Assembly (NCBI GenBank): GCA_017459895.1
Contig: JAFUCA010000039.1
Span: forward strand, 1-37,514
Length of the DNA: 37,514 bases
DNA from: Bacillota bacterium
GTDB taxonomy: Bacteria > Bacillota > Clostridia > Peptostreptococcales > Anaerovoracaceae
Direction of reading: 5' to 3'
Positions 4,762-36,510 of the stretch are shown here, piece after piece. The notes beneath the pieces were generated by a model. That model made no database searches. It had not been told where the DNA came from and saw nothing but the letters and a program-made list of their open reading frames with translations. Positions within the stretch are counted from its first letter, which is position 1. Every line of letters begins with the position of its first letter. Made by a program: the position numbers and the translations under genes.

Positions 4762-6035
4762 ACATAAGAATCACGGGAGCACCGACCGGCGGCCGGGTGC
4801 AGGCGATCCCGTCAAAATCGGCGGCGCACCGGATCATGATCGCTGCAGCCATGTCAGGCCTGGATCTGACGGACCAGCTGGACGGGCTGTCAAAGGATAT
4901 CACAGCGACAAAGCATTGTCTGCTGGCGTTGATGCAAAGGCTGGAGGGCACCTGCGGAGGGGCGAATGCAGAACAGATTGCCGGCGAAGAACCTGCACCG
5001 GCGCAGCTTCCCTGCGGGGAAAGCGGCTCGACCCTGCGGTTTCTGATTCCTCTGGCGGGAGTGCTGGGGATCAACGCGGACTTCATCTGCGAAGGAAGGC
5101 TGCCGGATCGTCCGATGGGTCCGTTTCTGGATCAGCTGATGCAGCATGGATGTTCCGTTGCCGGACGAAACCCGAAGCAGCTGCGGGGGGAGCTTCGCGG
5201 CGGAGTGTTCCGGCTTCCAGGAGACATCTCCTCCCAGTATGTGACCGGCCTGCTCATGGCGCTGCCTATGGCGGCGGAAGACAGCCGGATCATCGTGGAA
5301 GGGACACTGCAATCCCGTCCCTACATCGATCTGACGCTGGAGGTTCTGGCAAAGGCCGGCATTCAGGTTTCGGAACCTCGGAGCTCCGTTTTTGAGATTG
5401 CCGGCGGCCAGACATACCGTCTCCCGAAGGATGCGCTGGATCACATCGAAGGAGACTGGTCCAATGGAGCCTTCTGGCTGGTGATGGACGCCATGAACCG
5501 GGCCCGAGGCCGGGAAGGCATTGACTGCTTCGGTCTGGATTCCTGCTCCCGTCAGGGGGATAAGGCGATCGTCCCGGTGATCGATCAGATGCGCGCTGCG
5601 GATGATCCTTCGCCGGTACAGCGGGCAGAGGATCCCAGCCCGGTTCAGATCGATGTTTCCGATATTCCGGATCTGGTTCCGGCCATCGCGGTTCTTGCGG
5701 TAAGCCGGCCGGAAGGAGCTGTGACCCATATTACAGGCGCGGGGCGGCTGCGGTACAAGGAAAGCGATCGGCTGGCAACCGTCACCGGGACGCTGAATGC
5801 CCTGGGGGCGAAGATCACCGAAGAGCCGGAAGCTCTGCTCATTCCGGGACAGGGGAGCCTGCAGGGCGGGGAGATTTCTTCCTGCAGCGATCACCGGATC
5901 GTGATGATGGCCGCTGCCGCGGCCTGCATCTGCGAGGGAGAAATCCTCATACGCGATGCCCAGACTGTGGAGAAATCCTATCCCCGGTTCTTTGAGGATT
6001 ACCGGATGCTTGGCGGGCAGTGGGAGATCATCTGA
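4758..6035 (+). CDS. aroA: 3-phosphoshikimate 1-carboxyvinyltransferase (EPSP synthase)
   Basis: The 425-residue enzyme transfers enolpyruvyl from phosphoenolpyruvate to shikimate 3-phosphate. Visible signatures are IPSKSAAHR (K20, S21, R25), the CGESGSTLRF loop (86-95), RPYIDLTL, IPDLVPAIAVLA with the catalytic Asp, RYKESDRL and CSDHRIVM. At the position of E. coli Pro101 in the LGNAGTAMRP loop there is a Phe (F95), which may affect glyphosate sensitivity (inference). A short duplicated peptide DPSPVQ...DPSPVQ precedes the IDVSDIPD segment. The start overlaps tyrA by 4 bp (ATGA), indicating translational coupling. Confidence 0.95.
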   Translation: MNIRITGAPTGGRVQAIPSKSAAHRIMIAAAMSGLDLTDQLDGLSKDITATKHCLLALMQRLEGTCGGANAEQIAGEEPAPAQLPCGESGSTLRFLIPLAGVLGINADFICEGRLPDRPMGPFLDQLMQHGCSVAGRNPKQLRGELRGGVFRLPGDISSQYVTGLLMALPMAAEDSRIIVEGTLQSRPYIDLTLEVLAKAGIQVSEPRSSVFEIAGGQTYRLPKDALDHIEGDWSNGAFWLVMDAMNRARGREGIDCFGLDSCSRQGDKAIVPVIDQMRAADDPSPVQRAEDPSPVQIDVSDIPDLVPAIAVLAVSRPEGAVTHITGAGRLRYKESDRLATVTGTLNALGAKITEEPEALLIPGQGSLQGGEISSCSDHRIVMMAAAAACICEGEILIRDAQTVEKSYPRFFEDYRMLGGQWEII

Positions 6036-6074
6036 AGTTATAACAGGGAGAAAACATTGGAACAGGAGTAAACT

Positions 6075-7205
6075 GTGACAGTACCATTCGGAGAAAACCT
6101 GCAGATCGAAGTGTACGGGACGTCCCATGGCCCCTGCATCGGGGTCCGAATGGAGGGATTTCCGGAAGGGATCGTGATCGATCCGGAACAGCTGCAGACC
6201 TTTCTGGACCGGAGGGCGCCGGGCCGCAACGCCTGGTCCACCCCGAGGAAGGAAGCGGACCGGCCGGTCTTTCTTTCCGGTGTGGAGGATGCCGGAAGCG
6301 GAAGCGAAGCAGAGCAGGAGGCCGGGCAGGCCCAGCCTTTGCATCTTCTGCGGACAAACGGCGAGGCGCTGGTCGCAGAGATTCGAAACACCAACACCCG
6401 GCCCCAGGACTATGAAGCGAGCTCCGTCGTGCCCCGGCCGGCCCATGCCGACTATCCGGCCTGGATCAAATACGGGAAGATCGAATCCGGCGGCGGACAG
6501 TTCAGCGCGCGCCTTACAGCGGCCCTCTGCATTGCCGGAGGAATCGCACTGCAGTGGCTTAAGAGAAGAGGCGTCCGGGTCGCTGCCCACATTGCTTCTA
6601 TTGGGGATATTCAGGATACGCCCTTTGATCCTCTGGGCCTGCCGGAGCAGGCCGGCCGGGAGCCGCTCATTCAGCCGGATTTCCCGGTGATCGACCCTGC
6701 GCGGGGAGAAGCGATGAAGGCTTTGATTGCGGAGGTGAAGTCGGAAGGGGATTCCATCGGCGGGAGCATCGAGTGCATGATCTACGGCGTGCCTGCAGGG
6801 GCAGGGGAGCCGCTTTTCGGAAGCATCGAGGCGAGGATCTGCCAGAGTCTGTTCGCGGTGCCGGCGGTCAAGGGCATAGAGTTTGGTGCAGGCTTCAGCG
6901 TTACGGCAATGAAGGGCTCCGAAAACAACGACCCGTATCAGATGGAAGGCGGCGCTGTTGTCACCGGAACCAACCATCACGGCGGGATCCTCGGCGGACT
7001 GGCCTCCGGTATGCCGATCGTGTTTCGAACCGCGATGAAGCCGACACCGTCCATCGCATTGCCGCAGCGCAGCGTCGACCTGGTGTCGATGACGGAAACA
7101 GAACTGCAGATCAAGGGCAGACACGACCCGTGCATCGTCCCCAGAGCGGTTCCATGCATTGAGGCTGCGGCGGCGATTGCCATTATGGATGTACTTCTGG
7201 GGTAG
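6075..7205 (+). CDS. aroC: Chorismate synthase
   Basis: This 376-residue FMN-dependent enzyme makes chorismate from EPSP. The N-terminal motif is YGTSHG (H18); the usual acidic or serine residue before SH is a Thr here. Other family motifs are RRAPGRN, RPAHADY with the second catalytic His, SGGGQFSARLTA, GSENNDPYQ and GRHDPCIVPRAVP near the C-terminus. I accept the GTG start at 6075 because CAGGAG lies 6 bp upstream and the alignment of the first motif fits. It is separated from aroA by 39 bp and lies in the same operon. Confidence 0.94.
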   Translation: MTVPFGENLQIEVYGTSHGPCIGVRMEGFPEGIVIDPEQLQTFLDRRAPGRNAWSTPRKEADRPVFLSGVEDAGSGSEAEQEAGQAQPLHLLRTNGEALVAEIRNTNTRPQDYEASSVVPRPAHADYPAWIKYGKIESGGGQFSARLTAALCIAGGIALQWLKRRGVRVAAHIASIGDIQDTPFDPLGLPEQAGREPLIQPDFPVIDPARGEAMKALIAEVKSEGDSIGGSIECMIYGVPAGAGEPLFGSIEARICQSLFAVPAVKGIEFGAGFSVTAMKGSENNDPYQMEGGAVVTGTNHHGGILGGLASGMPIVFRTAMKPTPSIALPQRSVDLVSMTETELQIKGRHDPCIVPRAVPCIEAAAAIAIMDVLLG

Positions 7206-7225: not shown

Positions 7226-8746
7226 ATGACTGATTTACTGAGATATCGAGAAGAGATCGATCACATCGATCAAAAAATCATTGAACTTCTGGAGAGGCGC
7301 TTTGATACGTCGCAGGAGATCATCCGCTATAAGCAGCGAAAGGGATTGCCAATTCTGGACGCCGGGCGTGAACAGCAGAAGCTGGATGCGATGGCAGATA
7401 TCTGCGCTGAGGACAAGAAGTCATATATCGCGGAGATCTTGAAAGAGACCATGGCACAGAGCCGCCGGTATCAGGCGGAGCACCCGCTGCGGTACGGGCT
7501 GCTCGGACGTACCCTGGGCCACAGCCACTCGCCGGCGATCCATCGGATGCTGGGAGGATATGAGTACGGCCTCTTTGAGAGAGAGCCGGAGCATCTGGAC
7601 GCGTTCTTCGCACAGACCGACTGGCAGGGCATCAACGTGACCATCCCTTATAAGCGGGATGTGATGAAGTACTGCGATGAGCTCTCGGATACAGCGCAGC
7701 GCTGCGGCAGCGTCAACACCATTGTGCGCCGCAGGGACGGCCGGCTGTACGGAACCAATACAGATTACTATGGGTTTAGATATATCGTTGAACGATCCGG
7801 GATCGATCCCGCCGGCGCCAGAGCTCTGGTGCTGGGCAGCGGAGGGGTTTCCGGAACGGTGGTGCAGGTGATGAAGGATCTGGGCGCGGACCCGGTCATC
7901 ATCTCCCGCACCGGCGAGAACAATTACGGGAACCTGGAGCTTCATGCGGACGCGCAGATCATCATCAATACCACTCCCGTCGGCATGTTTCCAAAGGCTG
8001 GCGAGGCGGCGCTGGATATCTGCGCTTTTCCCCGCTGCCAGGCGATCTATGACCTGATCTACAACCCCCTGCGAACGAAGCTGATGCTGGATGCGGAGAA
8101 GGCAGGAATCCCGGCGTTCGGAGGGCTTCCGATGCTGGTTGCTCAGGCGGCGGCGGCAGCGGAGGAATTCGGCTATCCGTTGCAGCTTTCTGTGGAGGAT
8201 GCCTGCCGCAAGCTGCAGGAGGGACTGCAGAACATCGTACTGATCGGAATGCCCGGCGCCGGTAAAACAACGACGGGAAAGGCCCTGGCGCAGCAGACGG
8301 GAAGGCGTTTTCTCGACATGGACAATCTGATCACGCAGCATCAGGGAAAGACCCCGGAGGAGATCATCAGGGAAGACGGTGAAGCGCGGTTTCGGGAGAT
8401 CGAAACCCAGGTGCTGGAGGGGCTGGTCCGCGGACCATCGGCTTCTGCAGGCGGCCTCGTGATCGCCACCGGTGGCGGGATCGTTGAACGGGATGAAAAC
8501 CGGGAGCTGATCCGTGAAAACGGCCAGATCATCTGGCTGCGCCGGCCGCTGGAGGAACTTCCGACGGAGGGCAGACCCATTTCACAGGCAGACGGGCTCG
8601 CCGCGATCCTGAAACGAAGAGAGCCTTTGTATGAAGCCTGGAGTGACATAGCGGTCGACGGGATCGGCCCGGAGGAGACCGCGGCCCGGATCGAGGAGGG
8701 CTTGGGAAGAGAAGAGAGCCAGAGGGTATTGTCAAGTGATGTATAA
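7226..8746 (+). CDS. Trifunctional chorismate mutase / shikimate dehydrogenase / shikimate kinase fusion
   Basis: The 506-residue protein carries three domains. Residues 1-86 are a full AroQ-type chorismate mutase with R8, R25, K36, R48, E49 and Q78 at the expected catalytic positions. Residues 88-325 are AroE: GHSHSP, NVTIPYK (K143), NTD (D180), a GSGGVSG nucleotide loop (204-210) and NTTPVGM. Residues 336-495 are AroK: Walker A GMPGAGKTT (341-349), LDMDN, RFREIE, TGGG (415-418) and the lid Arg in EGRP (R450). It would reduce dehydroshikimate, phosphorylate shikimate and rearrange chorismate. It ends just before a palindrome array. The kinase and dehydrogenase motifs look intact; activity of all three is inferred. 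Confidence 0.92.
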   Translation: MTDLLRYREEIDHIDQKIIELLERRFDTSQEIIRYKQRKGLPILDAGREQQKLDAMADICAEDKKSYIAEILKETMAQSRRYQAEHPLRYGLLGRTLGHSHSPAIHRMLGGYEYGLFEREPEHLDAFFAQTDWQGINVTIPYKRDVMKYCDELSDTAQRCGSVNTIVRRRDGRLYGTNTDYYGFRYIVERSGIDPAGARALVLGSGGVSGTVVQVMKDLGADPVIISRTGENNYGNLELHADAQIIINTTPVGMFPKAGEAALDICAFPRCQAIYDLIYNPLRTKLMLDAEKAGIPAFGGLPMLVAQAAAAAEEFGYPLQLSVEDACRKLQEGLQNIVLIGMPGAGKTTTGKALAQQTGRRFLDMDNLITQHQGKTPEEIIREDGEARFREIETQVLEGLVRGPSASAGGLVIATGGGIVERDENRELIRENGQIIWLRRPLEELPTEGRPISQADGLAAILKRREPLYEAWSDIAVDGIGPEETAARIEEGLGREESQRVLSSDV

Positions 8747-8755: not shown

Positions 8756-9096
8756 TTGTCACGAGTAGGATCAAATTGCGAAACTACGTGACAATCCTGA
8801 CAAGCCGGCCCAGCTTTTGCAGAGAAAATTGTCACGGCAACTTCAAAAGCGTTGCCTGGCGTGGCAAAACGAAAAACAGATTGTCACAGAGTGAGCGAGA
8901 ATGCGAAGCTGCGTGACAAAATGAAGAGCGGATTGTCACGAGAAGAGCTAAAATGCAAAGCTACGTGACAATCTTGACAAGCCAGTCCAGCTTTTGCAGA
9001 GAAAATTGTCACGGCAACTTCCAAAACATTGCTCTGCGTGACAAAACGAAAAACAGATTGTCACAGAGTAAGCGGAAATGCGAAGCGGAGTGACAC
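8756..9096. repeat. Array of six 39-bp palindromic units in a 177-bp duplicated pattern
   Basis: This fills most of the 402-bp gap between the fusion gene and aroQ. Units lie at 8756-8794, 8829-8867, 8881-8919, 8933-8971, 9006-9044 and 9058-9096, each exactly 39 bp. They begin TTGTCAC and end GTGACAA; units 2 and 6 deviate by one base at the 3' end. Spacers are 34, 13, 13, 34 and 13 bp. Units 1-3 and 4-6 are copies offset by 177 bp. Units 1, 3, 4 and 6 share a centre like AATGCGAAGC, while 2 and 5 share GGCAACTTC. Both 34-bp spacers hold CCAGCTTTTGCAGAGAAAA. Each unit could fold as a DNA or RNA hairpin. No gene is seen. Confidence 0.93.
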
Positions 9097-9148: not shown

Positions 9149-9586
9149 ATGAACATACTCGTCATTAACGGACCGAACCTGAATATGCTGGGGATCCGGG
9201 AGCCGGACATTTACGGCAGGAAGACCTACAGAGATCTGGAGGACTTCGTGCGTACAGCCTTTGCAGAAGCGGGCGTTTCAGGAGACATCTGGCAGTCCAA
9301 CCACGAAGGTGCGATCGTCGATAAGATCCAGGAGGCCTACGGCGTATACGACGGGATCGTGATCAACCCCGGGGCTTATACCCATACCAGCGTGGCGATC
9401 CTGGACGCGCTGAAAGCCGTTGCCATCCCGACGGTGGAGGTGCACTTGTCCGACGTGGACGCCCGGGAGGAGTTCCGGCGGATTTCCTATGTCTCGCTGG
9501 CGGCGAAAAAGACCATCAAAGGCAAGGGCTTCGAAGGATACCGGGAAGGGATCCGGTATCTGACCGGGAAGGATGCGGACCGATGA
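9149..9586 (+). CDS. aroQ: 3-dehydroquinate dehydratase, type II
   Basis: The 145-residue enzyme dehydrates 3-dehydroquinate and is of normal length for the dodecameric type II family. Motifs are NGPNLNMLGIREP with R17, the catalytic Tyr (Y22) in DIYGR, the substrate loop INPGAYTHTS and the catalytic His in VEVHLSDVDAREEFR. ATG 9149 is preceded by AAAGGAAG; an upstream in-frame ATG at 9029 would extend into the palindrome array and is rejected. It completes an operon-like set with aroF, aroA, aroC and the AroE/AroK fusion, but no aroB is present to supply its substrate from this locus. Confidence 0.95.
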   Translation: MNILVINGPNLNMLGIREPDIYGRKTYRDLEDFVRTAFAEAGVSGDIWQSNHEGAIVDKIQEAYGVYDGIVINPGAYTHTSVAILDALKAVAIPTVEVHLSDVDAREEFRRISYVSLAAKKTIKGKGFEGYREGIRYLTGKDADR

Positions 9587-10770: not shown

Positions 10771-12723
<1,953 letters not shown>

Positions 12724-12727: not shown

Positions 12728-14634
12728 ACATCGACAAAAACCTGGAGCGGCTGCTGCGCCGCGTCGAGAAGCCGGCCCGTTACATCGGCGGCGAAGTGAA
12801 TATCGTACGAAAGGATCCGGCCGCGGTCAAGACGCGGCTGGCTTTTGCGTTTCCGGACACCTATGAGATCGGTATGTCCTACATGGGTCTCCAGATTTTG
12901 TACAACATTCTGAATCAGAACGACGCCATCGCCTGTGAGCGCGTGTTCGCTCCTGCGACGGATATGGAGGACTTGATGCGCTCCGAGGGGATGCCTCTGT
13001 TCACTCTGGAGAACTTCACGCCGGTCAGTGAGATGGATCTGCTGGGCTTCACCCTGCAGTACGAGATGGCTTTCACCAATGTGCTGAACATGCTGGAACT
13101 CGGCAATATCCCGGTGCGCGCATCGCAGCGGATGGAGCAGGATCCCGATTGCAGACAATGGCCGGTGATCATCGCCGGCGGTCCCTGCGCCTTCAATCCG
13201 GAGCCTTTGGCGGATTTCATCGATGTGTTCCTGATCGGGGACGGTGAGGAGCTTCTCGAAGAGGTGTGTCTGGAGTACGCGGCAGTGAAGGAAGAATTCG
13301 CAAAGGCTGGAGCTGGCCCCGACGCTGCTGCGCCGGAAGGGGAGCACCCGGGACGGAAGCCGGCATTCCTGCGGCGGATCGCGAAGATGGACGGCGTATA
13401 CGTTCCGGCCTTCTATAAGCCGGAATACAATGAGGACGGCACCCTGCGGCGAATGCAGGTGATGGATCCTGCGGCGCCGGAGAAGGTGCGCCGGGCGATC
13501 CTGCCGGATATCGAGAAGGCGGCCTTTCCGACGAAAAACCTGGTGCCGCTGATCGAAACGGTCCATGACCGCAGCGTGGTGGAGACCTTCCGGGGCTGCA
13601 CCCGGGGCTGCCGGTTCTGCCAGGCGGGGATGATCTACCGGCCGGTGCGGGAGCGGAAGAAGGAGACGATCCTGAACCTGGCAATGGAGCAGCTGGCAAA
13701 CACCGGCCACGATGAGCTGTCGCTGCTGTCTCTGTCCACCAGCGATTATTCCCGATTTGAAGAGATGGCCGTGGAGCTGATGGGACTCTGCCGGGCGCAG
13801 AATGTGGCCCTGTCCCTTCCGTCACTGCGGCTGGATTCCTTTTCCTTTAAGGTGCTGGACGAGATCCAGGGGTACCGCAAGTCGGGGCTGACCTTCGCGC
13901 CGGAAGCGGGGACCCAGCGCCTGCGGGATGTGATCAATAAGAACATCACCGAGGAGGACATCTATTCGGCGACCCGCCAGGCCATCGAGCTTGGCTGGGA
14001 GCACATCAAGCTCTATTTCATGATCGGGCTTCCCACGGAGACCTACGAGGATCTGGACGGCATCGCCGAGATCGCCAGAAACATCATGGACATCAACTTT
14101 CAGGTCCGCGGGCGAAAGGGCGGGCGTTTTCGCGTCACCGTCAGTGTGTCCAATTTCGTGCCCAAGGCCCACACGCCTTTTCAGTGGGAGCCCCAGGATA
14201 CGGCGCAGGATTTCATCGATAAACACGACTATCTGTCCCGGAAGCTCCGGATCAAAGGCGTGACCTTCAACTATCACGAATCGGGCACCAGCAGTCTGGA
14301 GGCGGTGTTCGCCCGGGGCGACCGTCGCTGCGGCCGTGTGCTGGAAGAGGCGCGAAGGCTGGGCTGCCGGTTCGATGCCTGGAGCGAGCATTTTGATGTG
14401 CAGAAATGGGCACAGGCCTTCGAAGCCTGCGGAGTGGATCCGGACTTTTATACGGTCCGGCCGCGGAAGGTAAGCGAGGTGCTCCCATGGGATCACATCG
14501 ATCCGGCGATGCTCCGATCATTTCTGGAGGAGGAACGGGAGAGGGCCATTCGTGAAACCACGACCCCGGACTGCCGGGAAGGCTGCGCCGGCTGCGGCAT
14601 GAATCGAGTAACGGAGTGTTTCTGCAATGTCTAA
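12724..14634 (+). CDS. B12-binding-type radical SAM protein, TIGR03960 family
   Basis: The 636-residue protein has an N-terminal region with ARYIGGE...RLAFAFPDTYEIGMSYMG (quoted in part as FPDTYEIGMS) typical of the family. A radical SAM core around 292-299 contains CTRGCRFC, the CxxxCxxC cluster ligands (C292, C296, C299). The C-terminus ends with a Cys-rich segment DCREGCAGCG...CFC that could bind metal. The molecular function of the family is not established to my knowledge. It is normally paired with the TIGR03936/DUF2344 protein, as here, and lies close to rplU-rpmA-obgE in clostridia; the usual rng gene is not present. Confidence 0.9.
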
Positions 14635-15343
14635 ATACATCATCGAGTTTTCAAAAACAGGAACGATCTGCTACACGTCCCATCTGGATCTGATGCGGAT
14701 CTTCAAGCGCGTGTTCAAGCGGACCGGCATCGCGCTGGCGTATTCCCAGGGGTTCAATCCCCATCCGAAGATGGGATTTGCCCAGCCTTTGTCTCTCGGA
14801 TACGAGAGCAGGGAGGAGTACATCGAGTTCGAGACCGCCGATGAATGGCAGGAGGACCAGCTTTTGCAAAGGCTGGCCGGCGGCCTTCCGGAGGGCATTG
14901 AACTGAAACGGGCGCTGCAGGCGGAGCATCTGACGAAAACGCTGGCGGCGCATACCGTTGCGGCGCAGTACCGGATTGAGATTCCGGCGTTAACTGCAGA
15001 CCTGCAGGATCCCCGGGGGATGTGGCACGCCTATATGGATCAGGAACCGATTCTCGCCTGGAAACGGCAGAAGAAGAAAAAAGAACCGAAGCAGGTCGAC
15101 ATCAGGCCGATGATCCGGGAAATCACCTTCACGCCGGCTGCAGATCCCGGGTCCGGGGGGAGCATCCTCGTCGTGGATGCGCTGCTGGATGGGGGCAGCC
15201 ATTCGAACCTGAGCCCGGAACTGGTCATCACGACCGTGCTGGAGCGGCTGGGGATCAGGACGGACCGCAGCGAGATCAGCGTGGCCCGGGAGAAGCTGGT
15301 GTTTGATAAGCCTTTGGAGGAACTGCTTCGGGGGCAGAGATAA
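14627..15343 (+). CDS. TIGR03936 / DUF2344 family protein, radical SAM partner
   Basis: The 238-residue protein starts MSKYIIEFSKTGTICYTSHLDLMRIFKRVFKRTGI and contains SQGFNPHPKMGFAQPLSLGYES, the family's best conserved stretch (given here as FNPHPKMGFAQPL). It overlaps the preceding radical SAM gene by 8 bp. In some lineages the two are fused, so they probably act together, possibly in RNA or ribosome-linked modification (inference). Two copies of the AAAGGCTGG motif lie in it, at 14782-14790 and within the inverted pair at 14857-14876. Confidence 0.88.
   Translation: MSKYIIEFSKTGTICYTSHLDLMRIFKRVFKRTGIALAYSQGFNPHPKMGFAQPLSLGYESREEYIEFETADEWQEDQLLQRLAGGLPEGIELKRALQAEHLTKTLAAHTVAAQYRIEIPALTADLQDPRGMWHAYMDQEPILAWKRQKKKKEPKQVDIRPMIREITFTPAADPGSGGSILVVDALLDGGSHSNLSPELVITTVLERLGIRTDRSEISVAREKLVFDKPLEELLRGQR
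14857..14876. repeat. Inverted, overlapping pair of the CAAAGGCTGG motif
   Basis: CCAGCTTTTGCAAAGGCTGG is a near-perfect palindrome (one mismatch): the motif TGCAAAGGCTGG and its reverse complement share the TTTGCAAA centre. It lies inside a coding sequence, in the frame that reads QLLQRLAG. Sixteen exact copies of AAAGGCTGG or CCAGCCTTT were counted in the window. Confidence 0.85.
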
Positions 15344-15406: not shown

Positions 15407-16216
15407 ATGAAAGAATTATTGGAAGATCTGAGGAGCGGGGAACCGGTTCTCGACGTGCTGATGGAGCACAAAAAAGAAACCATTCAGCTGGCGGCCCTGG
15501 CGGTGGCGGTACTGCTGGGACTGCTTCTGTATATGCATCAGAGCAGCGCAGATCTGCTGGTCAATGACGAGGGCGGCAGCCGGGCGGTCACCCAGGAAGA
15601 AGCAACCAGCGGGGATGGCAGAAGCGAAGGAACGGGAGATGCGGCTGCCGGGCGCGGTGCCGGCAGCAGCGATGCCGGGATCACAGGTTTCACCGATGCA
15701 AGCGGCCAGCCTTTGGACACGGATGGGATCGTCTATGTCGATATCGGCGGTGCGGTGAAGAATCCCATGCTGGCGGAACTTCCCAGCGGCAGCCGGGTGG
15801 AGGATGCCATCGAAGCTGCGGGAGGGCTGAAGAAGAACGCGGACATGACATCGGTGAACCGGGCGCAGATTCTGACGGACGGGGAGAAGGTCTACATCCC
15901 GGAGGAAGGAGAATCGGCCGAAAGCGGATTGGCGGGAGGCGCAGGCAATGGATCCGGAGCAGACGGAAGCGGATTTGGCGGCGGAAGTTCCGGGAGCACC
16001 CCCGGAATGGTCGGGATCAGCGGCGGCCGGATCAACATCAATACCGCCGATGTGACTCTGCTGCAGCAGCTGACCGGAGTCGGTCCTGTCACCGCGCAGA
16101 AGATCGTGGATTACCGGGAGCAGAACGGGAATTTTCAGTCGATTGAAGATCTGAAAAACGTTTCCGGCATCGGCGATAAGACATTTGAGAAGATGAAGGA
16201 CGATGTGACGATCTGA
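15407..16216 (+). CDS. comEA: ComEA-like DNA receptor (SLBB plus helix-hairpin-helix)
   Basis: The 269-residue protein has an N-terminal cytoplasmic stretch, one membrane helix at about 25-43, a Ser/Gly-rich linker, an SLBB domain (about 107-165, IVYVDIGGAVKNPMLAELP), a second Gly-rich linker and tandem helix-hairpin-helix motifs (about 207-266, RININTADVTLLQQLTGVGP). This matches ComEA, which binds incoming double-stranded DNA outside the membrane during transformation. No comEC or comEB follows; it is a stand-alone gene with its own promoter, so competence rests on genes elsewhere. It also contains a CCAGCCTTT motif at 15706-15714. Confidence 0.9.
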   Translation: MKELLEDLRSGEPVLDVLMEHKKETIQLAALAVAVLLGLLLYMHQSSADLLVNDEGGSRAVTQEEATSGDGRSEGTGDAAAGRGAGSSDAGITGFTDASGQPLDTDGIVYVDIGGAVKNPMLAELPSGSRVEDAIEAAGGLKKNADMTSVNRAQILTDGEKVYIPEEGESAESGLAGGAGNGSGADGSGFGGGSSGSTPGMVGISGGRININTADVTLLQQLTGVGPVTAQKIVDYREQNGNFQSIEDLKNVSGIGDKTFEKMKDDVTI

Positions 16217-16417: not shown

Positions 16418-17122
16418 ATGAGTACACACATCAATGCGGAGAAGGGGCAGATCGCGGAGTCGATTCTGCTGCCCGGGGATCCGCTGCGGGCGAAGTTCAT
16501 CGCGGAGAATTTCCTGACCGGGGCGAAGTGCTACAACGAAGTCAGAAACATGTTCGGATACACCGGGACGTACAAAGGCGTGCCGGTCTCGGTGCAGGGA
16601 ACCGGGATGGGGATGCCTTCCATCGGGATCTACTCCTGGGAGCTGATCAGCGATTTCGGCGTCCGCAACCTGATGCGGATCGGAACCGCCGGATCCTACC
16701 ATAAGGATATCAAGGTCAGGGATATTGTCGCAGGGGTATCGGCGTCGACGAACTCCAATTACGCGGAAGCCTTCGATCTGCCCGGCACGTACGCGCCCTG
16801 CGCCAGCTTTGAGCTTCTGATGAAGCTGGAGGATGCCTCGGAGGAACTGGGAATTCCGTTCCACGCCGGCAACATCCTCTCCAGTGATACTTTCTACGAT
16901 ACGAGGGAGGATACCTGGAAACGCTGGGCGAAGATGAACGTAATGGCGGTAGAGATGGAGGCGGCCGCGCTGTACATGAATGCCGCTTATCTCGGGGCGA
17001 ATGCTCTGGCGATCATGACCATCAGTGATCATTTTGTTACCGGTGAGGAGACCACGGCGGAAGAGCGGCAGGAAAGCTTCACCGACATGATGAAGCTGGC
17101 GCTGGAGACGATCACCGCGTAG
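16418..17122 (+). CDS. deoD: Purine nucleoside phosphorylase, DeoD type
   Basis: The 234-residue enzyme cleaves purine (deoxy)ribonucleosides with phosphate in nucleoside salvage. DeoD-type features are H4 near the N-terminus, [13 protein letters not shown] with the phosphate-binding Arg, [20 protein letters not shown] with the ribose-binding Glu, and the catalytic Asp in TISDHF. The length is normal for the hexameric enzymes. ATG 16418 has GAGGTG 8 bp upstream. It appears monocistronic, with its own promoter and a palindrome-rich region downstream. Confidence 0.96.
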
Positions 17123-17135
17123 CCGCCTGAGCTGG

Positions 17136-18047: not shown

Positions 18048-19844
<1,797 letters not shown>

Positions 19845-21028: not shown

Positions 21029-22531
21029 ATGGCAGGCAAATACATCATGGCCCTCGATCAGGGCACCACAAGTTCCAGATGCATCATCTACGACAGGACC
21101 GGGCAGCAGATCAGCGTCGCCCAGAAGGAGTTCCGCCAGATCTACCCGAAGGCCGGCTGGGTGGAGCACGATCCGATGGAGATCTGGTCGTCTCAGCTGG
21201 AGGTCGCCCGGGAAGCGATGCGAAGGATCTTTGCATCGCCGCAGGACATCGATGCCATCGGCATCACCAATCAGAGAGAAACCACCATCGTCTGGGACAG
21301 ATCCACCGGCCGTCCGGTGTATAACGCCATCGTATGGCAGTGCCGCAGGACCGCCGGCTTCTGCGATGAGCTGAAGAGGGAAGAGGGCCTGGCCGGGGCG
21401 TGGCGGCAGAAGACCGGTCTTCTGATCGATGCCTATTTCTCCGCGACCAAGATCCGGTGGATTCTGGACCACGCAGAAGGCGCGCGGGAGAAGGCGGTGA
21501 AGGGGGAGCTCCTGTTCGGCACCGTTGAGACCTGGCTCATCTGGAATCTGACCGGCGGGAAGGTCCACGTTACCGATTATTCCAACGCTTCCCGCACCAT
21601 GCTCTTCAATATCCATACGCTGCAGTGGGATGAGGAGATCCTCCAAAGGCTGGACATTCCCTCCTCCATGCTGCCCGAGGCGCGGCCCAGCAGCGGGATC
21701 TACGGATACACATCGCCGGAGCTCTTCGGAGCGCCGATTCCCATCGCCGGGGCGGCGGGGGATCAGCAGGCGGCTCTGTTCGGACAGGCCTGCTTTGAAG
21801 AGGGGCAGGCGAAGAATACCTACGGTACCGGCGGATTCATGCTGGTCAACACGGGAAACCGCATCGTATCCTCGGATCACGGCCTGCTGGCCACCATTGC
21901 CTGGGGTCTGAACGGGGAGGTCCGCTACGCGCTGGAGGGATCGGTGTTCGTATCCGGCGCCACTATCCAGTGGCTGCGGGATGAGCTGGGGCTGATCGGA
22001 TCCGCTGCCGAGACGGAAGCCATGGCCCGGCAGGTGCCGGATACCGCCGGAGCCTACATCGTGCCGGCCTTCACGGGGCTGGGGGCGCCCTACTGGGATC
22101 CTTACGCCAGAGGGGCGATCCTGGGACTGACCCGGGGGGTGAACCGCAATCACATCGCCAGAGCCGCGCTGGAATCCATGGTCTATCAGACCTGCGATCT
22201 GGTGCAGGCGATCACTGAGGATCTGGGCTGCGGCATCAACATGTTCAAGGTGGACGGAGGGGCTTCCGCCAACGATTTCCTGCTCCAGTTCCAGGCGGAT
22301 ATGATCGGACAGCCGGTCTACCGGCCGGTGTGCATCGAGACCACTTCCCTGGGAGCGGCGTACCTGGCAGGCCTTGCCACCGGATACTGGAGGGACCAGG
22401 AGGACATCCTGTCGAACTGGCAGCTGGACCGCAGATTCGACCCGCAGGAGGGACAGGAGAAGCGGGACCAGCTTTTGGACGGATGGCACCGGGCGGTCCG
22501 CAGAGCCCTGCAGTGGAGCGAAGAGTCATAA
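21029..22531 (+). CDS. glpK: Glycerol kinase
   Basis: The 500-residue FGGY-family kinase phosphorylates glycerol with ATP. The N-terminal phosphate-1 motif [13 protein letters not shown], the substrate region [29 protein letters not shown] and the adenosine motif [15 protein letters not shown] are all present. The length is typical. ATG 21029 has CAGGAG upstream, 35 bp after hemW. No glpF or glpD is nearby, so the partner genes must lie elsewhere. Confidence 0.96.
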
Positions 22532-24580: not shown

Positions 24581-24604
24581 AGGAAGGAACGTTAAATACT
24601 TAAC

Positions 24605-24868
24605 ATGAAGTGCGGAGTGAAGTTCTGCGGCGGATGCAATCCCCGCTACCAGAGAGGAGATGCATACAGAGCGATCAAGGCAGACCTGCCCCAGATCGAC
24701 TTTGAATACGCCGAGGAGGGCGTGCCCTACGATCAGCTTCTGGTGATTGGCGGCTGTCCGGCCTGCTGCGCCAGCTTCCGGCAGTATACTGTCAATGATG
24801 AAGTGCTCAAGATGTGGTCCCCGGATCACATGGAGAATATTAAACAAAAGCTTCTGCAAAAGCTGTAG
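24605..24868 (+). CDS. Small Cys-rich protein of unknown function in the 4-hydroxybutyrate cluster
   Basis: The 87-residue protein begins MKCGVKFCGGCNPRYQRGDAY and has a second Cys group in IGGCPACCASF (C51, C54, C55 with C3, C8, C11). The pattern suggests a metal or Fe-S site or redox-active thiols. I do not know a function for this family. It sits between abfD and abfT after the abfD terminator; AAGGAA is rather far from the ATG. A hairpin made of two inverted CAAAGGCTGG-type motifs overlaps its stop codon. Confidence 0.78.
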   Translation: MKCGVKFCGGCNPRYQRGDAYRAIKADLPQIDFEYAEEGVPYDQLLVIGGCPACCASFRQYTVNDEVLKMWSPDHMENIKQKLLQKL

Positions 24869-24881
24869 CCAGCCTTTGCAG
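24854..24881 (+). terminator. Hairpin of an inverted motif pair at the end of the Cys-rich gene
   Basis: CTGCAAAAGCTG (24854-24865) pairs with CAGCCTTTGCAG (24870-24881) over 11 of 12 positions around the loop TAGC, which includes the stop codon. One arm is an exact CCAGCCTTT motif, the other a one-base variant. Inverted uptake sequences used as terminators are known in Haemophilus and Neisseria; the T-run here is weak, so termination is only possible. Confidence 0.55.
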
Positions 24882-24909
24882 ACAAATAATTATTGGAGGT
24901 ACCGTTTTA

Positions 24910-26232: not shown

Positions 26233-26307
26233 AGATTACCTGCGGGACCGGGGAATTCCCCCGTTCCCGTACTATAAACTGTAGTTAACCATAAGGAGGT
26301 TTACGTT

Positions 26308-29062: not shown

Positions 29063-30305
29063 GATAAGAAAACTGCGTAACGGAGCGACGATGATTATGG
29101 AACGGACGGATTTCGTCCGTTCTGCTGCCCTTGGCATCTGGGTCAGGACCGGTTCGTCCCATGAGAGCGGGGATAATTCCGGTGTTTCTCACTTTATCGA
29201 GCATATGATGTTCAAGGGGACCGAACAGAGAAACGCCCGCCAGATCGCGGAAGCCGTGGACCGGATCGGCGGCATGTCCAACGCCTTCACCGGTAAAGAA
29301 GCCACCTGCTACTATATCAAGACGCTGTCATCCAATATCTATGACGGCGCAGAGATCCTGCTGGATATGGTGACGGGCTCTACGTTTGCCGAGGAGGAGA
29401 TGAACAAGGAACGGCAGGTCATCCTGGAGGAGATCAAGATGATCCGCGATACCCCGGATGAGGATGTGATTGATATGATCTCAGAGCTTGTGAACGGCAA
29501 GAATGCCATCGGACAGACCATCCTCGGAACGCCGGAATCGCTGGCCGGAATCGACCGGCAGAAGCTGGTGGACTATTACTGCAGGGAGTATTCCAGAGAC
29601 AGCATCGTAATCGCAGCCGCCGGCAATTTTGATCCGGAAAGGCTGGCAGCTCTCTTCGAAGAAGGGCTGGATTCTCTGCCAGCGGACAAGCCAGCCTTTG
29701 CACCGAAAATCTACCCCTACGAACAGCAGTTCCAGGTCCGGGTCAAGGACATCGAGCAGACCCATCTGTGCATGGCGATTCCGTCGGTTTCCCTGGGAGA
29801 TGACCGATACTATACCTTCGTGCTTCTGAGCAGCATTTTCGGCGGAAGCATGAGCTCCCGCCTGTTCCAGAACATCCGGGAGGAACGGGGGCTGGCCTAT
29901 TCCGTCGCGTCGATGAACGCGTTTTCCAGCCGGTCCGGGTTCTTTACGATCTACGCGGGAGTTGCTCATGAGAAGCTGAAGGAGACGGTGGAGGCGATCA
30001 AGTACGAGATCGAGAAGCTGTGCGAAGACGGGGTGAGCGAGGATGAGCTGGCGATGGCCAAGGAACAGATGAAGAGCTCCTTCATTTTCGGCCTGGAGAA
30101 TATCAACAGCCGCATGTTCAACCTGGGCAAGAACAAGCTGCTTCTGGACCGGGTCTTTGAGGCGGATGAAGTTCTGCAGGCGTACGATGCGGTCACCCGG
30201 CAGGATATCCTCGATGCCGCGCAGCTGATCGGACAGTCCACCAGCTACTGCGGCGCGGCCGTCACAGGCAGGGAATTTGATCTGGAGGCGCTGGTGCGGT
30301 CATGA
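29055..30305 (+). CDS. M16 family zinc metallopeptidase
   Basis: The 416-residue protein has the inverted zinc motif HFIEH (H46, E49, H50) and the distal Glu in ERQVILEEIKM. A second, inactive-like M16 domain includes the typical R-Y-like ERGLAYSVASM loop. It resembles the processing-peptidase-like proteins (YmxG/MlpA type) of Firmicutes, whose substrates are poorly known. I chose ATG 29055 because GGAGGAAGAGGA precedes it and the homologous N-terminus begins IEIRKLRNG; an upstream frame extension back to 28890 is not family-like. It overlaps dut by 4 bp. Confidence 0.93.
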   Translation: MIEIRKLRNGATMIMERTDFVRSAALGIWVRTGSSHESGDNSGVSHFIEHMMFKGTEQRNARQIAEAVDRIGGMSNAFTGKEATCYYIKTLSSNIYDGAEILLDMVTGSTFAEEEMNKERQVILEEIKMIRDTPDEDVIDMISELVNGKNAIGQTILGTPESLAGIDRQKLVDYYCREYSRDSIVIAAAGNFDPERLAALFEEGLDSLPADKPAFAPKIYPYEQQFQVRVKDIEQTHLCMAIPSVSLGDDRYYTFVLLSSIFGGSMSSRLFQNIREERGLAYSVASMNAFSSRSGFFTIYAGVAHEKLKETVEAIKYEIEKLCEDGVSEDELAMAKEQMKSSFIFGLENINSRMFNLGKNKLLLDRVFEADEVLQAYDAVTRQDILDAAQLIGQSTSYCGAAVTGREFDLEALVRS

Positions 30306-30746: not shown

Positions 30747-31760
30747 ATGATCACAAGAACACTGGTTGAACAACGGGAACACGACATACTGTCGGAATAC
30801 GCAGCCAAGGCAGATGAGAGCCGCGGACGGCGGATGGAGGAAGAACAATGCCCGATCCGGACCGTTTTTCAGAGGGATCGGGACCGTATCATCCATTCCA
30901 AATCCTTTCGGCGTCTGATGCACAAGACGCAGGTCTTTCTAGCTCCCGAAGGGGATCACTACCGGACCCGCCTGACGCATACCATCGAAGTATCGCAGAT
31001 CGCAAGGACCATCGCCCGGGGCTGCGGTCTCAATGAAGATCTGACCGAAGCCATCGCCATGGGACACGATCTGGGACACACCCCTTTCGGACACAGCGGA
31101 GAAGCCATTCTGAACCGGATCTACAGCCGGGGCTTCCGGCACAATGAACAGAGCCTGCGGGTGGTGGATGTGCTGGAATCCGGAGGATCGGACCGGCGGG
31201 GGCTCAATCTGACGGAAGAGGTGCGGGACGGGATCCTCAATCACACCGGACCGGAGATGCCGTTTACACTGGAAGGGCAGGTCGTTAAGATCAGTGACCG
31301 GATCGCCTATATCAATCATGACATCGATGACGCGATCCGAAGCGGAGTCATCACCGCGGCGGATCTTCCGGAAGAGAGTCTGCGGGTTCTGGGAAGGACC
31401 CACAAACAGAGAATCGATACCCTCGTAAATGACATGATCGAACATACCGACGGACAGCCTCAGGCGCGGCTCAGCGATGAGAAGACCCGGGTAATGAACG
31501 AGCTGCGGGCCTTCATGTTCCGGAACGTATACCACAGCTCCCTGGTCAAGCGGGCGGAGGACGTGGCTAAGAGCGAGAGCGTGATCACATCCCTCTTCGA
31601 GTACTATCTGGATCATCCCCGGGAACTTCCCACGGACCTGCGGATGATGTCCGAGGAATACGATACCGAGGAGCTGGCGAAGGATCACGTTGCCAGTATG
31701 ACGGACCGGTACGCCCTCAATCTGTACAATGAGCTGTTCGTTGTCAAAGGCTGGAGATAA
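30747..31760 (+). CDS. Deoxyguanosinetriphosphate triphosphohydrolase-like protein
   Basis: The 337-residue HD-domain protein has the dNTPase signatures RDRDRIIHSKSFRRLMHKTQV, given in part as HSKSFRRLMHKTQVF, then RTRLTHTIEV, GHDLGHTPFGHSGE with the HD pair, and DRIAYINHDIDDA. It probably hydrolyses a dNTP to nucleoside and triphosphate. The length fits the shorter dgt-like subfamily commonly next to dnaG in Firmicutes. An AAAGGCTGG motif is at 31746-31754 over its last codons. Confidence 0.93.
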   Translation: MITRTLVEQREHDILSEYAAKADESRGRRMEEEQCPIRTVFQRDRDRIIHSKSFRRLMHKTQVFLAPEGDHYRTRLTHTIEVSQIARTIARGCGLNEDLTEAIAMGHDLGHTPFGHSGEAILNRIYSRGFRHNEQSLRVVDVLESGGSDRRGLNLTEEVRDGILNHTGPEMPFTLEGQVVKISDRIAYINHDIDDAIRSGVITAADLPEESLRVLGRTHKQRIDTLVNDMIEHTDGQPQARLSDEKTRVMNELRAFMFRNVYHSSLVKRAEDVAKSESVITSLFEYYLDHPRELPTDLRMMSEEYDTEELAKDHVASMTDRYALNLYNELFVVKGWR

Positions 31761-31849: not shown

Positions 31850-33601
31850 GTGAGTTCATCGAATATCGTTGAAGAAATCAAAAGCAGGTGTAACATCGTT
31901 GATGTTGTCGGCAGAGTCGTCACTCTGAAAAAGGCAGGGAGCAATTACAAGGGTCTCTGTCCTTTTCACAATGAGAAGACACCTTCTTTTAATGTGAACG
32001 AAGACAAGCAGATCTTCAAATGCTTCGGCTGCGGCGCTTCCGGGGATGTGATCGCCTTCGTGGAGAAGTACTATAACCATGATTTCCGCGGGGCCTGCGA
32101 GATGCTGGCAGGAGAGTACGGCATCGATCTGACCGGGGCCTTCGGCAGCAGCGAGCAGAAGAAGGAACTCTACGAGATCAACCGTCAGGCGGCCATGTTC
32201 TTTTATAAGGCCCTCCGGTCGAAGATGAACCCCGGATACGCCTATATGAAGAATCGCGGGATCTCCGAGGAGACGATGAACCGGTTCGGGATCGGATACG
32301 CGGACGGGCAGTGGCAGAGCCTGCTGAGTCATATGGAGTCTCTCGGCATTTCCCGGGAGAAGCTGCTCCGGCTGGGGCTGATCTCCCAGTCCAGGGGCAG
32401 ATATTACGATAAGTTCCGGGACCGGGTGATTTTCCCGATCATCAACATCGGGGGCAAGGTCATCGGCTTCGGCGGACGGATCATCGGCGATGGGAATCCG
32501 AAGTATCTGAACTCACAGGAGTCGGATATCTTCCAGAAAAAGAACAATCTGTACGGGCTGAATCTGGCGAAGACGGATATCACCCGGGAGGACCGGATCG
32601 TTCTGGTGGAGGGGTATATGGATGTTATCTCCCTCTATCAATCCGGGATCCGGAACGTCTGCGCATCCCTTGGGACTGCGCTGACGGAGAACCAGGCGAG
32701 GCTGATCCGGCGCTATACCCGAAATGTGATCCTGTCCTACGATGCCGATGAGGCGGGGCAGAACGCAGCCATGCGGGGCATCGATATCCTCTATCAGGAG
32801 GAGCTGCGGCCGAGGGTGCTCCGGGTCACCGACGGCAAGGATCCGGATGAGTTTGTCAAGAAAAACGGCAGATCAGCCTTTGCAGAACTGATGGATCAGG
32901 CGCTGCCCTACGGGGACTTCAAGATGGCCCGGCTCAGCAGCCGCTACGATCTGAAGGATGAACAGCAAAGGCTGGACTACCTGCGGGATATCATCGCGCA
33001 GCTGCAGTCCATGAAGCCGGTAGAGGCGGATCTGTACATCCAGAAGATCGCCGAGCAGACGGGGATCTCGTCCCAGGCGATCCGGAGGGAATACGAGGCA
33101 GGAAGGCAGCAGGAAACCGGAGCACCGCCGCCGTCCGCGCATCAACAGCCGGCGGAGGCTTCCGCGATCAGTGAGGCGGAGAAGACCCTTCTCAAACTGA
33201 TGCTGACGGACATGAAATATACGGATCTTCCGGAGGAACTCAGCGGACAGGTGTTTCGAAGCGAGGAAGGAACTGCGCTTTATCAGATGATCCTGGGCCA
33301 GAGGCAGGAGCAGGGCGGTGCAGCGGGCCCCGCGCATCTGCAGAGACTGCGGGAGCAGGCGGGAGCGGAGCTCGCCGATGTTCTGGAGGAAGTCAGCGGA
33401 ATCGTCATTCCTCCGGACAAAGAAGAAACCATCTATGCGCAATGCATTGATTATATTCAGAAAGAAGAACTGCGGCGTCAGGACCAGGAGATCACCTGGA
33501 AGCTTTCTCTGGATGACGGAAGCATTTCCGATGAGCAGCTGGCAGAGCTGATGCAGAGACAGGCGCAGATACAGCGGATACTGAAAGGACAGGGGGTATA
33601 A
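31850..33601 (+). CDS. dnaG: DNA primase
   Basis: The 583-residue primase makes RNA primers at the replication fork. The zinc ribbon has C37, H40, C58 and C61 (CPFH...CFGC). The TOPRIM core shows VEGYMDVISLYQSGI with the metal Glu and the SYDADEAGQNA motif. A C-terminal helicase-binding region follows a variable linker. The start is GTG (31850), in frame with the conserved SNIVEEIKSRCNIVDVV; the ribosome binding site is imperfect (AAGGGA, then GAGGTC). It lies 6 bp upstream of rpoD, the standard arrangement. Confidence 0.96.
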   Translation: MSSSNIVEEIKSRCNIVDVVGRVVTLKKAGSNYKGLCPFHNEKTPSFNVNEDKQIFKCFGCGASGDVIAFVEKYYNHDFRGACEMLAGEYGIDLTGAFGSSEQKKELYEINRQAAMFFYKALRSKMNPGYAYMKNRGISEETMNRFGIGYADGQWQSLLSHMESLGISREKLLRLGLISQSRGRYYDKFRDRVIFPIINIGGKVIGFGGRIIGDGNPKYLNSQESDIFQKKNNLYGLNLAKTDITREDRIVLVEGYMDVISLYQSGIRNVCASLGTALTENQARLIRRYTRNVILSYDADEAGQNAAMRGIDILYQEELRPRVLRVTDGKDPDEFVKKNGRSAFAELMDQALPYGDFKMARLSSRYDLKDEQQRLDYLRDIIAQLQSMKPVEADLYIQKIAEQTGISSQAIRREYEAGRQQETGAPPPSAHQQPAEASAISEAEKTLLKLMLTDMKYTDLPEELSGQVFRSEEGTALYQMILGQRQEQGGAAGPAHLQRLREQAGAELADVLEEVSGIVIPPDKEETIYAQCIDYIQKEELRRQDQEITWKLSLDDGSISDEQLAELMQRQAQIQRILKGQGV

Positions 33602-34855: not shown

Positions 34856-35649
34856 TGTGCGCGCAGGTGATGCAGCTTCGGATGAAGCTCTCGGAGCGCA
34901 TGCAGGTGATCGCAGATCATGTGGATGCCGGGGAGGTCGTTGCGGACATCGGTACGGATCACGGACAGATTCCGGTATGGCTGTTCGCCAGCGGCATATC
35001 CCCCCGGGCGATCCTTTCGGACATCAGCGACGGATCGATCCGCAAGGCGGAGGAGACGGCAGCGGCCTATCAGTTTGGCGAGGGTATGTCCTTTCGGACC
35101 GGAGACGGTCTTTCGGTGCTGCGGCCGGGGGAGGCGGACACGGTGATCATCGCCGGGATGGGCGGCAAGCTGATCCGACAGATCCTGGCGGCGGATCCGG
35201 GGCATACGGCGTCCTTTCGCAAATTTATCCTGCAGCCGAGAAAGGGGCAGGGGCCTCTGCGAAAATGGCTGCTGCAAAACGGCTACCGCATCCTCTGCGA
35301 GGACGTGGTCCGGGAAGGTCGGTTCCTCCCGGAGATCATCACCGCCCTCAGTCCAGCCTTTGCAGGATCGGGGGAGGCTGCGAAGCACGGACGCGCGCCG
35401 GATCTGGCCGCGGCGGACCGGGAGCATCTGAAAGGTCTTGAGGAGCAGGACATCCGTCTGCGGGTTCCGCCCTGGATGGTTTTCGCAAAGGGCCCGATGG
35501 AGGAATTTTTCGATCTGCGGATCGCGCAGGAAACGCTGATTCTGGAGAATCTGCAGCGGGCGAAGGCCCGCAGGGAAGACAGCGAGCAGAAGGCCCGGGA
35601 TAATCTGGATTACCTTCGGCAGCTCAAATGTAAATATAAGGAGATTTAG
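34855..35649 (+). CDS. trmK: tRNA (adenine(22)-N1)-methyltransferase
   Basis: The 264-residue protein is of the TrmK/YqfN family, which methylates N1 of A22 in tRNA. Motif I, VADIGTDHGQIPVWL, and the later IIAGMGGKLI and LQPRKGQGPLRKWL stretches are family-typical for the SAM-binding Rossmann fold. A C-terminal coiled-coil-like region follows (residues about 220-262). The start overlaps rpoD by one base; a second ATG at 34870 is possible. trmK next to rpoD and nif3 is the usual order in Firmicutes. Confidence 0.93.
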   Translation: MCAQVMQLRMKLSERMQVIADHVDAGEVVADIGTDHGQIPVWLFASGISPRAILSDISDGSIRKAEETAAAYQFGEGMSFRTGDGLSVLRPGEADTVIIAGMGGKLIRQILAADPGHTASFRKFILQPRKGQGPLRKWLLQNGYRILCEDVVREGRFLPEIITALSPAFAGSGEAAKHGRAPDLAAADREHLKGLEEQDIRLRVPPWMVFAKGPMEEFFDLRIAQETLILENLQRAKARREDSEQKARDNLDYLRQLKCKYKEI

Positions 35650-36510
35650 ATGAATTATCAGGACTTGATCGATATCATAGAGGAAATCGCCCCGACGGAG
35701 TGGTTTGAGGAGGAAGACAATTCCGGAATTCAGATCCACACGGGCAAGGAGGAGATCGACCGCGTACTGGTCTGTCTGGAGGTCAATGACGCGGTGCTGC
35801 AGGAAGCGCAGGACAAGGGCGCGGACATGATCATCACGCATCATCCGCTGCTGTTCCATCCGCTGCAGCGCATCACACCGGATACGCCGGTGGGAAGGTA
35901 CGCCCTTCACGCCATCGAGCAGGGCATCGATATCTATTCCTCGCATCTGGCGTTCGATGCGGCGGTTCATGGCAATAACATGTATCTGGCGGACCTGCTG
36001 CGGCTGCAGAATGTGGCCCGGCCCGAGGATGAGGACGAGGATGAAGATGAAGAGTATGATTTCGCCGGCATCGAATTTGATGGGGATGACGAGGACGACG
36101 CGTATGAATACGATCCGGACGAAGTAGGGAGCATCGGATTCCTTCCGAGGACTCTGAACTTCCGGGAGTTTCAGACCTATGTGGAGCGGTGCCTGAATCT
36201 GCCGCAGAATTACGTGCGCTGCGTGGACGGCGGAAGGGACGAGATCTGCAAGGTGGCGTTCTGCACCGGCGCCGGAGGGGACTACATCTATACGGCAGTC
36301 AGGGAAGGCTGTGATGCCTACATCACCGGCGATCTGAAGCTGCACGAGGCGCAGTATGCCAAGGCAATGGGACTTACCGTGATCGACGCCGGCCACTACG
36401 GTACGGAGAAGATCTTCACGGAGAACATGGCGGCGCAGCTTCGCGCAAAGGCTGGAGACGCTCTGGAGGTCATTGAGGCGGAGTCGAACACGAATCCGTA
36501 CACTCTGTGA
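35650..36510 (+). CDS. Nif3-like dinuclear metal protein with an acidic insert
   Basis: The 286-residue protein belongs to the Nif3/YqfO family (also annotated GTP cyclohydrolase 1 type 2). Metal ligands are visible in THHPLLFHP (H64, H65) and, near the C-terminus, in DAGHYGTEKI with the His and Glu. Between the two halves, residues 125-158 form an Asp/Glu-rich stretch (PEDEDEDEDEEYD...) in place of the usual structured domain linker. Function is uncertain across the family. It starts directly after the trmK stop with AAGGAG upstream. Confidence 0.92.
   Translation: MNYQDLIDIIEEIAPTEWFEEEDNSGIQIHTGKEEIDRVLVCLEVNDAVLQEAQDKGADMIITHHPLLFHPLQRITPDTPVGRYALHAIEQGIDIYSSHLAFDAAVHGNNMYLADLLRLQNVARPEDEDEDEDEEYDFAGIEFDGDDEDDAYEYDPDEVGSIGFLPRTLNFREFQTYVERCLNLPQNYVRCVDGGRDEICKVAFCTGAGGDYIYTAVREGCDAYITGDLKLHEAQYAKAMGLTVIDAGHYGTEKIFTENMAAQLRAKAGDALEVIEAESNTNPYTL

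Follow-up and report, generated by a model that had tools for sequence, protein, structure and literature searches.

The stretch studied here, 37,514 nucleotides from the genome of an uncultured gut clostridium (the window; position 1 is its first letter), raises the question of why one short word, the 9-mer AAAGGCTGG, recurs in it so often, and whether it could be, as a first-pass annotation proposed, a DNA uptake sequence. The window holds 17 exact copies, ten on the + strand and seven on the - strand, against 0.30 expected from dinucleotide shuffles, in agreement with the earlier estimate of about 0.3, and 0.51 under an order-2 Markov model (Poisson log10 p about -19.7 for the excess). All 16 coordinates given in that annotation proved to be exact matches, but its total was one short since the copy at 19116-19124 (+) had been overlooked; its near-balance of orientations stands, the split being ten to seven with this copy added. 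The C that it saw directly 5' of the word was confirmed in 15 copies, now out of 17, the exceptions lying at 19116 and 29638. If A is accepted in place of G at the one tolerated position (CAAARGCTG), the window has 25 matches against 0.60 expected. The two inverted pairs described earlier also exist (14858 on - with 14867 on +, and 24857 on + with 24870 on -), each made up of one consensus and one variant copy. From the sequence comparisons that follow, we think it likely that this motif serves a lineage of Bacillota as a DNA uptake sequence, one that arose independently.

The excess extends over the whole genome (G000; 2.50 Mb in 55 contigs), where AAAGGCTGG occurs 923 times (458 and 465 per strand) against 17 (9 and 8) for its reversed control, a genome-wide count far from expectation. 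This corresponds to a density of about 370 copies per Mb, mostly within genes. The longer CAAAGGCTGG is found 395 and 396 times per strand, against 4 and 3 for the reversed control. When k-mers were ranked against an order-3 Markov model in 20 genome stretches plus the window (384 kb), a check suggested together with the genome-wide count, the motif family came first at every length from 8 to 13.

The extended word is TGCAAAGGCTGG plus a C about one helical turn downstream. In a sequence logo of 200 copies, a few of them duplicates, the favoured bases are T (0.64) at -2 and G at -1 (0.74) and +9 (0.72), with C at +15 (0.56; p 5e-16) and +16 (0.47) some ten bases past the middle of the core. 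Flanks beyond the 12-mer carry little information apart from the weak C at positions +15 to +17. When GCAAAGGCTG is changed at one base, G6 to A is readily accepted (25 vs 1.6 expected), the first base is soft (10-27 copies vs about 1), C2 to G is raised (16 vs 2.2) and changes at T9 and G7 are mildly so; changes in AAA, C8 and G10 showed no enrichment. The downstream C is kept in intergenic copies (0.63, n=30) and in off-consensus copies (0.66, n=41), and is present in five of the six reading frames, falling to 0.31 in the sixth (n=13 copies). Thus the C seems to be part of the site, and its presence beside off-consensus variants suggests that these are real sites as well. The consensus is non-palindromic and, read directly, the 12-mer contains no stop codon in any of the six frames.

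Could the word be an artefact, produced by assembly redundancy, by codon or composition bias, or by a dispersed repeat that carries it? The assembly is indeed partly redundant, since two of the five small contigs sampled, C12 and C14, are 99.97-100% identical to parts of C6 and C34, and the logo, orientation and frame counts include these duplicated contigs (about 20 kb of 384-424 kb). Removing all five small contigs and adding further stretches (389 kb), however, barely altered the counts, with 125 copies of CAAAGGCTGG against 1.1 (order 3) or 2.3 (order 4) and 61 of TGCAAAGGCTGG against 0.07 or 0.15. A dispersed repeat was rejected on the nearly random flanks outside the 12-mer. As for codon usage, gene calls from a simple codon-model script placed 106 of 130 CAAAGGCTGG copies in predicted genes, 52 on the gene strand and 54 on the opposite strand, where they occupy all six reading frames; the other 24 are intergenic, a slight over-representation given that 12.5% of bases are intergenic (p 0.047). 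Synonymous-codon shuffles left a mean of 1.8 copies against 107 observed in coding sequences. Codon usage in one frame therefore fails as a full explanation, and a codon-pair or composition effect was likewise discarded; the proposal that selection acts on the DNA and not on the protein is borne out. As the word is also strong in four other genomes, we regard an artefact as scarcely credible.

A polar recombination or segregation signal of the Chi or KOPS (FtsK-orienting polar sequence) type deserved attention, as the word shares with these sites that it is short, enriched, conserved, non-palindromic and spread genome-wide. Chi and KOPS sites, however, are polar. With the strand inferred from GC skew, 97 copies lie on the leading and 99 on the lagging strand, and the even strand counts over the contigs agree with this absence of polarity. 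Such a role, against which the first-pass annotation had already held the balanced orientation, was rejected and is very improbable. Spacing is near random and slightly even (coefficient of variation 0.87 vs 0.97, p 0.055).

If the word were an uptake sequence, it might be kept at homologous places in relatives, and this was examined on alignments with permuted 9-mers as control. G011, the nearest relative at 81% identity, retains 15 of 19 sites, compared with 26 of 151 permuted 9-mers (p 1e-7); the figures are 5 of 10 against 14 of 101 in G010 (p 0.013) and 5 of 14 against 14 of 123 in G369 (p 0.027). Conservation, raised as a check by the annotation, is thus significant in three of the five relatives aligned.

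The spelling of the word changes across the genus. Of 346 genomes of the family, five are rich in CAAAGGCTGG, and all five belong to the window's genus (G000 791, G011 477, G010 388, G001 375 and G369 334 copies); G012 has 41, and the maximum is 29 in the remaining 42 genomes of the genus and 25 in the 298 from other genera. By LepA, G011, G010, G001, G369 and G012 are the nearest relatives of the window's genome (94-98%). A k-mer search in stretches of 34 other genomes of the genus recovered related words: GCAAAGGCAGG in G012 (7 vs 0.06 in 56 kb), GCAAAGGCAA in G003 (15 vs 0.09), GCAAARGCAG in G007 (17 and 10 vs about 0.2), GCAAAGGCAG and GCAAAGGCAA in G017 and G333, GCAAAAGCTC in G033 (6 vs 0.12), and GCAAAAGC with mixed endings in G004, G015 and G018. 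The ending is CTGG in the window's clade and CAGG in its neighbours, and G369 has both. Genome-wide, CAAAGGCAGG is found 445 times in G369, 229 in G012, 138 in G001, 118 in G007, 110 in G011, 106 in G006, 68 in G010 and 37 in G000, with 71-110 in nine others. The share CAGG/(CAGG+CTGG) is 0.85 in G012, 0.83 in G006, 0.57 in G369, 0.27 in G001, 0.19 in G011, 0.15 in G010 and 0.04 in G000, and the LepA branching order is G012, G006, G001, G369, G010, then G000 with G011. The shift thus tracks the tree, with G001 and G369 out of order.

The core also occurs in the named public loci nearest to the window's genus. The host probably belongs to the family Anaerovoracaceae. Its 4-hydroxybutyryl-CoA (coenzyme A) dehydratase has as its best named neighbours RUG14246 and the goat-gut RGIG2569 (95% each) and UBA1191 (89%), followed by Gallibacter, Clostridium aminobutyricum and Emergencia (81-83%). 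The RUG14246 locus L021 has eight copies of AAAGGCAA against 0.63 expected, the RGIG2569 locus L022 five of AAAGGCTGG in 9.3 kb, and locus L026 eight of GCAAAAGC and nine of GCAAAGGC against 0.8 and 0.9. Outside the genus, three other genera of high core density were searched and a comparable longer word was not found in them: G089 (L295-L297) has in 48 kb 14 copies of GCAAAAGC vs 4.5 and 12 of GCAAAGGC vs 3.8, G102 (L297-L301) has in 80 kb 32 of GCAAAAGC vs 7.5, and G205 has in 31 kb 5 of GCAAAAGC vs 3.2 and 6 of GCAAAGGC vs 2.5. The enrichment in G102 and G089, from two other genera of the family, is mild, but it tempers a strict confinement of the pattern to one genus. In scans of viral contigs with the extended word and its reverse, no contig among the matches listed had two copies.

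The density of the shared core, GCAAARGC, divides the 48 genomes of the genus into 33 with 305-862 copies per Mb and 14 with 70-186. The remaining genome, G279, has 321 per Mb and was placed with the low group because composition, which predicts about 250, nearly explains this density (14 vs 9.9 in 40 kb). A LepA tree of 41 of the 48 (28 high, 13 low with G279 counted as low) omits G025, G028 and G029, whose LepA is fragmentary, and G003, G021, G035 and G349, which have no full LepA. One branch splits high from low density, with weak support (56/99); a single change between the two occurs in 58% of 200 bootstrap trees, and none of 500 label shuffles was as low. Depending on the root of the tree, the split can be read as one gain or as one loss. 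A comparable word was not found in eight low-density species (36-60 kb each), with G022 a possible exception (GCAAAGGGCA, 5 vs 0.1).

What machinery could read such a word? Known here from their genes, the competence proteins ComEA, ComEC/Rec2, DprA and RecA and two pilus-type loci are present. The ComEA-like protein encoded in the window matches the Pfam HHH_3 and SLBB models and the NCBIfam model of the ComEA helix-hairpin-helix repeat above cut-off, and the full-length comE model scores below cut-off. Of 49 genomes of the genus, 43 have a ComEA-like protein (E 6e-24 or better), 40 have ComEC/Rec2 and 45 the DprA family; ComEC/Rec2 of the window's genome scores above its NCBIfam cut-off. One pilus-type locus (L151, 7070-10891) is an operon of a T2SSF protein, four small open reading frames (ORFs) and a PilT-family ATPase above cut-off, and differs from the classical comG set. 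The four small ORFs each have a hydrophobic start and one is a DUF4860 protein, the other three matching no family above cut-off; no pilin family scored above cut-off among them, in profile searches that were not aimed at ComP or PpdA. That this operon encodes an essential pilus is doubtful because it was not found in 13 of the 33 high-density genomes, many of the assemblies being incomplete. In G369, contig C61 holds pieces from both sides of the operon about 0.9 kb apart, one of them inverted, so that this is a rearranged region, not a neat site that lacks the operon. The other locus is Tad-like, with a T2SSE ATPase, two T2SSF proteins and one TadE protein above cut-off. As the sole T2SSE match above cut-off in G369 (an 83% complete assembly) resembles Tad ATPases in size and profile range, a Tad-type pilus appears to be the better candidate there.

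Several observations weigh against reading the word as an uptake sequence. At the strict level ComEA was not found in six genomes of incomplete assembly, G003, G012, G011, G002, G035 and G349, and despite this G003, G011 and G012 have strong words. The uptake genes also fail to separate motif-rich from motif-poor genomes: with G279 left out, ComEC is present in 28 of 33 motif-rich and 10 of 14 motif-poor genomes, and the PilT family, read by hand from a profile table in which many assemblies are incomplete, in 20 of 33 and 6 of 14. The machinery was discarded as a discriminator of the two kinds of species. Conservation of sites was not significant in G001 (3 of 10 vs 13 of 81 permuted, p 0.24) or in G012 (1 of 6 vs 4 of 66, p 0.36). 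Inverted neighbour pairs at most 45 bp apart number 12 in the sample, and a T-run was not visible beside them in the printed stretches, which show six bases on one side; because the pairs are few and the T-run not visible, a terminator role for them is not supported here.

The split in density that does not track the uptake genes would suit an abundant chromosome-binding protein, nucleoid-associated or involved in segregation, whose specificity had drifted within the genus and whose sites were selected on the cell's own chromosome, with no DNA uptake; the even spread and the conserved sites would fit it also. Known systems of chromosome-binding sites, however, show polarity or regional clustering, against strand counts of 97 and 99 here, and the density of the word, its mostly genic position, its maintenance across frames and the two dialects side by side in G369 are features of uptake words. 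We consider such a protein unlikely. Any process that favours copies would give strand-neutral and frame-neutral accumulation, so the word might instead bias another form of gene exchange or conversion, such as gene transfer agent packaging or a recombination hot spot that favours the copy with the word, with a similar drive and no uptake receptor involved. ComEA, ComEC and DprA are present, however, and we know of no sequence-specific system of that kind with dialects, so that this explanation appears quite improbable. The reading as an uptake sequence is supported, at the level of sequence, by density, strand balance, use of all frames and the extended flank, and further by the conserved sites and by dialects that have one core in common and agree broadly with the species tree.

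The uptake bias, the receptor and the drive are what we infer from these patterns. A pilus on the cell surface, or an associated DNA-binding protein, would prefer double-stranded DNA with TGCAAARGCTGG, and a weak second contact about one turn downstream would add to the preference. ComEA and ComEC would import one strand, which DprA and RecA would recombine into homologous DNA. Since DNA that bears the word would enter and recombine more frequently, biased transfer would make the word accumulate and hold it at homologous positions irrespective of what it encodes. As the preference of the receptor drifted, the word would be rewritten, giving dialects that share the core GCAAARGC. On balance, and with more reserve than for the uptake reading itself, we lean towards a third uptake sequence system that evolved independently and would be the first beyond the Proteobacteria; its GCAAARGC dialect family, perhaps read via a Tad-type pilus, would include a switch from CAGG to CTGG that is half-way in living species.

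How does the word compare with known systems? To our knowledge, uptake-sequence systems are the only ones in which a strand-neutral, frame-neutral word is kept at orthologous sites and has dialects built on a shared core. The HIP1-type repeat of cyanobacteria is a palindromic octamer, unlike the consensus here. The uptake signal sequence (USS) of Pasteurellaceae is flanked by AT tracts, whereas a C pair flanks the present word, and word and host differ too. For the DNA uptake sequence (DUS) of Neisseriaceae, ComP is the receptor in Neisseria. The consensus TGCAAAGGCTGG differs from USS words and from the CTG-core DUS words; being unrelated to both, it is a member of neither.

According to PMC12616744, discrimination of DNA by such words is known from the Gram-negative Neisseriaceae and Pasteurellaceae alone, and the USS, for which ComN/PpdA is named as candidate receptor, has a 9-mer-type core, an extended consensus and related dialects (Hin and Apl). 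An extended core and related dialects are found for the word here too. The apparent weak second contact about one turn from the core would be a further likeness to the USS. The DUS, as described in PMC3630211, is likewise a highly enriched 10-12-mer; its eight dialects share a short invariant CTG core, largely follow phylogeny and include one species with two dialects, as G369 has here. The core here is GCAAARGC and the host belongs to Bacillota, and whereas all but one of the DUS dialects contain a stop codon in one frame (PMC3630211), the present word has none in six. Veillonella parvula, also of the wider Firmicutes, is competent and prefers its own genomic DNA to polymerase chain reaction product; no uptake word is shown for it, the authors reporting in PMC5397411 no sequence of at least 10 bp present at least 100 times. 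A search of the literature, with subscription papers and preprints outside its scope, found no report of an uptake-type word in Clostridia or Bacillota. The word looks as if it works like DUS and USS, in a host where none is known.

The coordinates of the motif copies and of the uptake and recombination genes in the window are collected in the table.

Table. Copies of the word, its variants and associated genes in the window
Feature	Coordinates	Strand	Basis
Consensus copy CAAAGGCTGG	4935..4944	+	
Consensus copy CAAAGGCTGG	6332..6341	-	
Consensus copy CAAAGGCTGG	7992..8001	+	
Consensus copy CAAAGGCTGG	13301..13310	+	
Consensus copy CAAAGGCTGG	14782..14791	-	
Consensus copy CAAAGGCTGG, inverted pair with variant at 14858	14867..14876	+	
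Consensus copy CAAAGGCTGG, within comEA gene	15706..15715	-	
Consensus copy CAAAGGCTGG	18904..18913	-	
AAAGGCTGG preceded by G, overlooked earlier	19116..19124	+	
Consensus copy CAAAGGCTGG	21644..21653	+	
Consensus copy CAAAGGCTGG, inverted pair with variant at 24857	24869..24878	-	
AAAGGCTGG preceded by G	29638..29646	+	
Consensus copy CAAAGGCTGG	29691..29700	-	
Consensus copy CAAAGGCTGG	31745..31754	+	
Consensus copy CAAAGGCTGG	32966..32975	+	
Consensus copy CAAAGGCTGG	35353..35362	-	
Consensus copy CAAAGGCTGG	36446..36455	+	
CAAAGGCTG without final G	9255..9263	-	
CAAAGGCTG without final G	11819..11827	-	
CAAAGGCTG without final G	32874..32882	-	
Variant CAAAAGCTG	2013..2021	-	
Variant CAAAAGCTG	8811..8819	-	
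Variant CAAAAGCTG	8988..8996	-	
Variant CAAAAGCTG, inverted pair with 14867	14858..14866	-	
Variant CAAAAGCTG	20163..20171	+	
Variant CAAAAGCTG	22469..22477	-	
Variant CAAAAGCTG, inverted pair with 24869	24857..24865	+	
ComEA-like gene (SLBB and helix-hairpin-helix pair), candidate for the DNA receptor step	15407..16216	+	Pfam, NCBIfam
recA, recombination step	424..1545	+	Named by eye from translation

Other features of the window were observed alongside. At 23031-27432 the 4-hydroxybutyryl-CoA dehydratase is followed by ORFs whose translations resemble a CoA transferase and an iron-type alcohol dehydrogenase, and a full-length class A RNase P RNA lies at 36545-36906. After the ORF at 16418-17122 there is an array of hairpin units, AACTCTGCCAAA...TTTGGCAGAGTT, at 17133-17355, with three 43-nt copies spaced 72-73 bp apart and with diverged loops; it gave no Rfam match at gathering score. 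A second over-represented word, CGTGACAATT, occurs 14 times in the 389 kb against 0.26 expected, with sites at L008 18300-18550, L012 7290-7370, L004 10658 and about 9003-9013 of the window. Several of its copies face TTGTCACG about 15 bases on in a hairpin-like arrangement, and some adjoin uptake-type words.

If the word is indeed an uptake sequence, its independent origin in Bacillota would mean that self-recognition of this kind evolves time and again and can do without a proteobacterial outer membrane. The roughly 33 species with graded dialects, one of them with two, would allow a comparative test of molecular drive against choice of kin DNA as the reason why uptake words exist. Natural transformation would be predicted as a route of gene exchange in these uncultured gut clostridia, and the word would offer a handle for transforming them.

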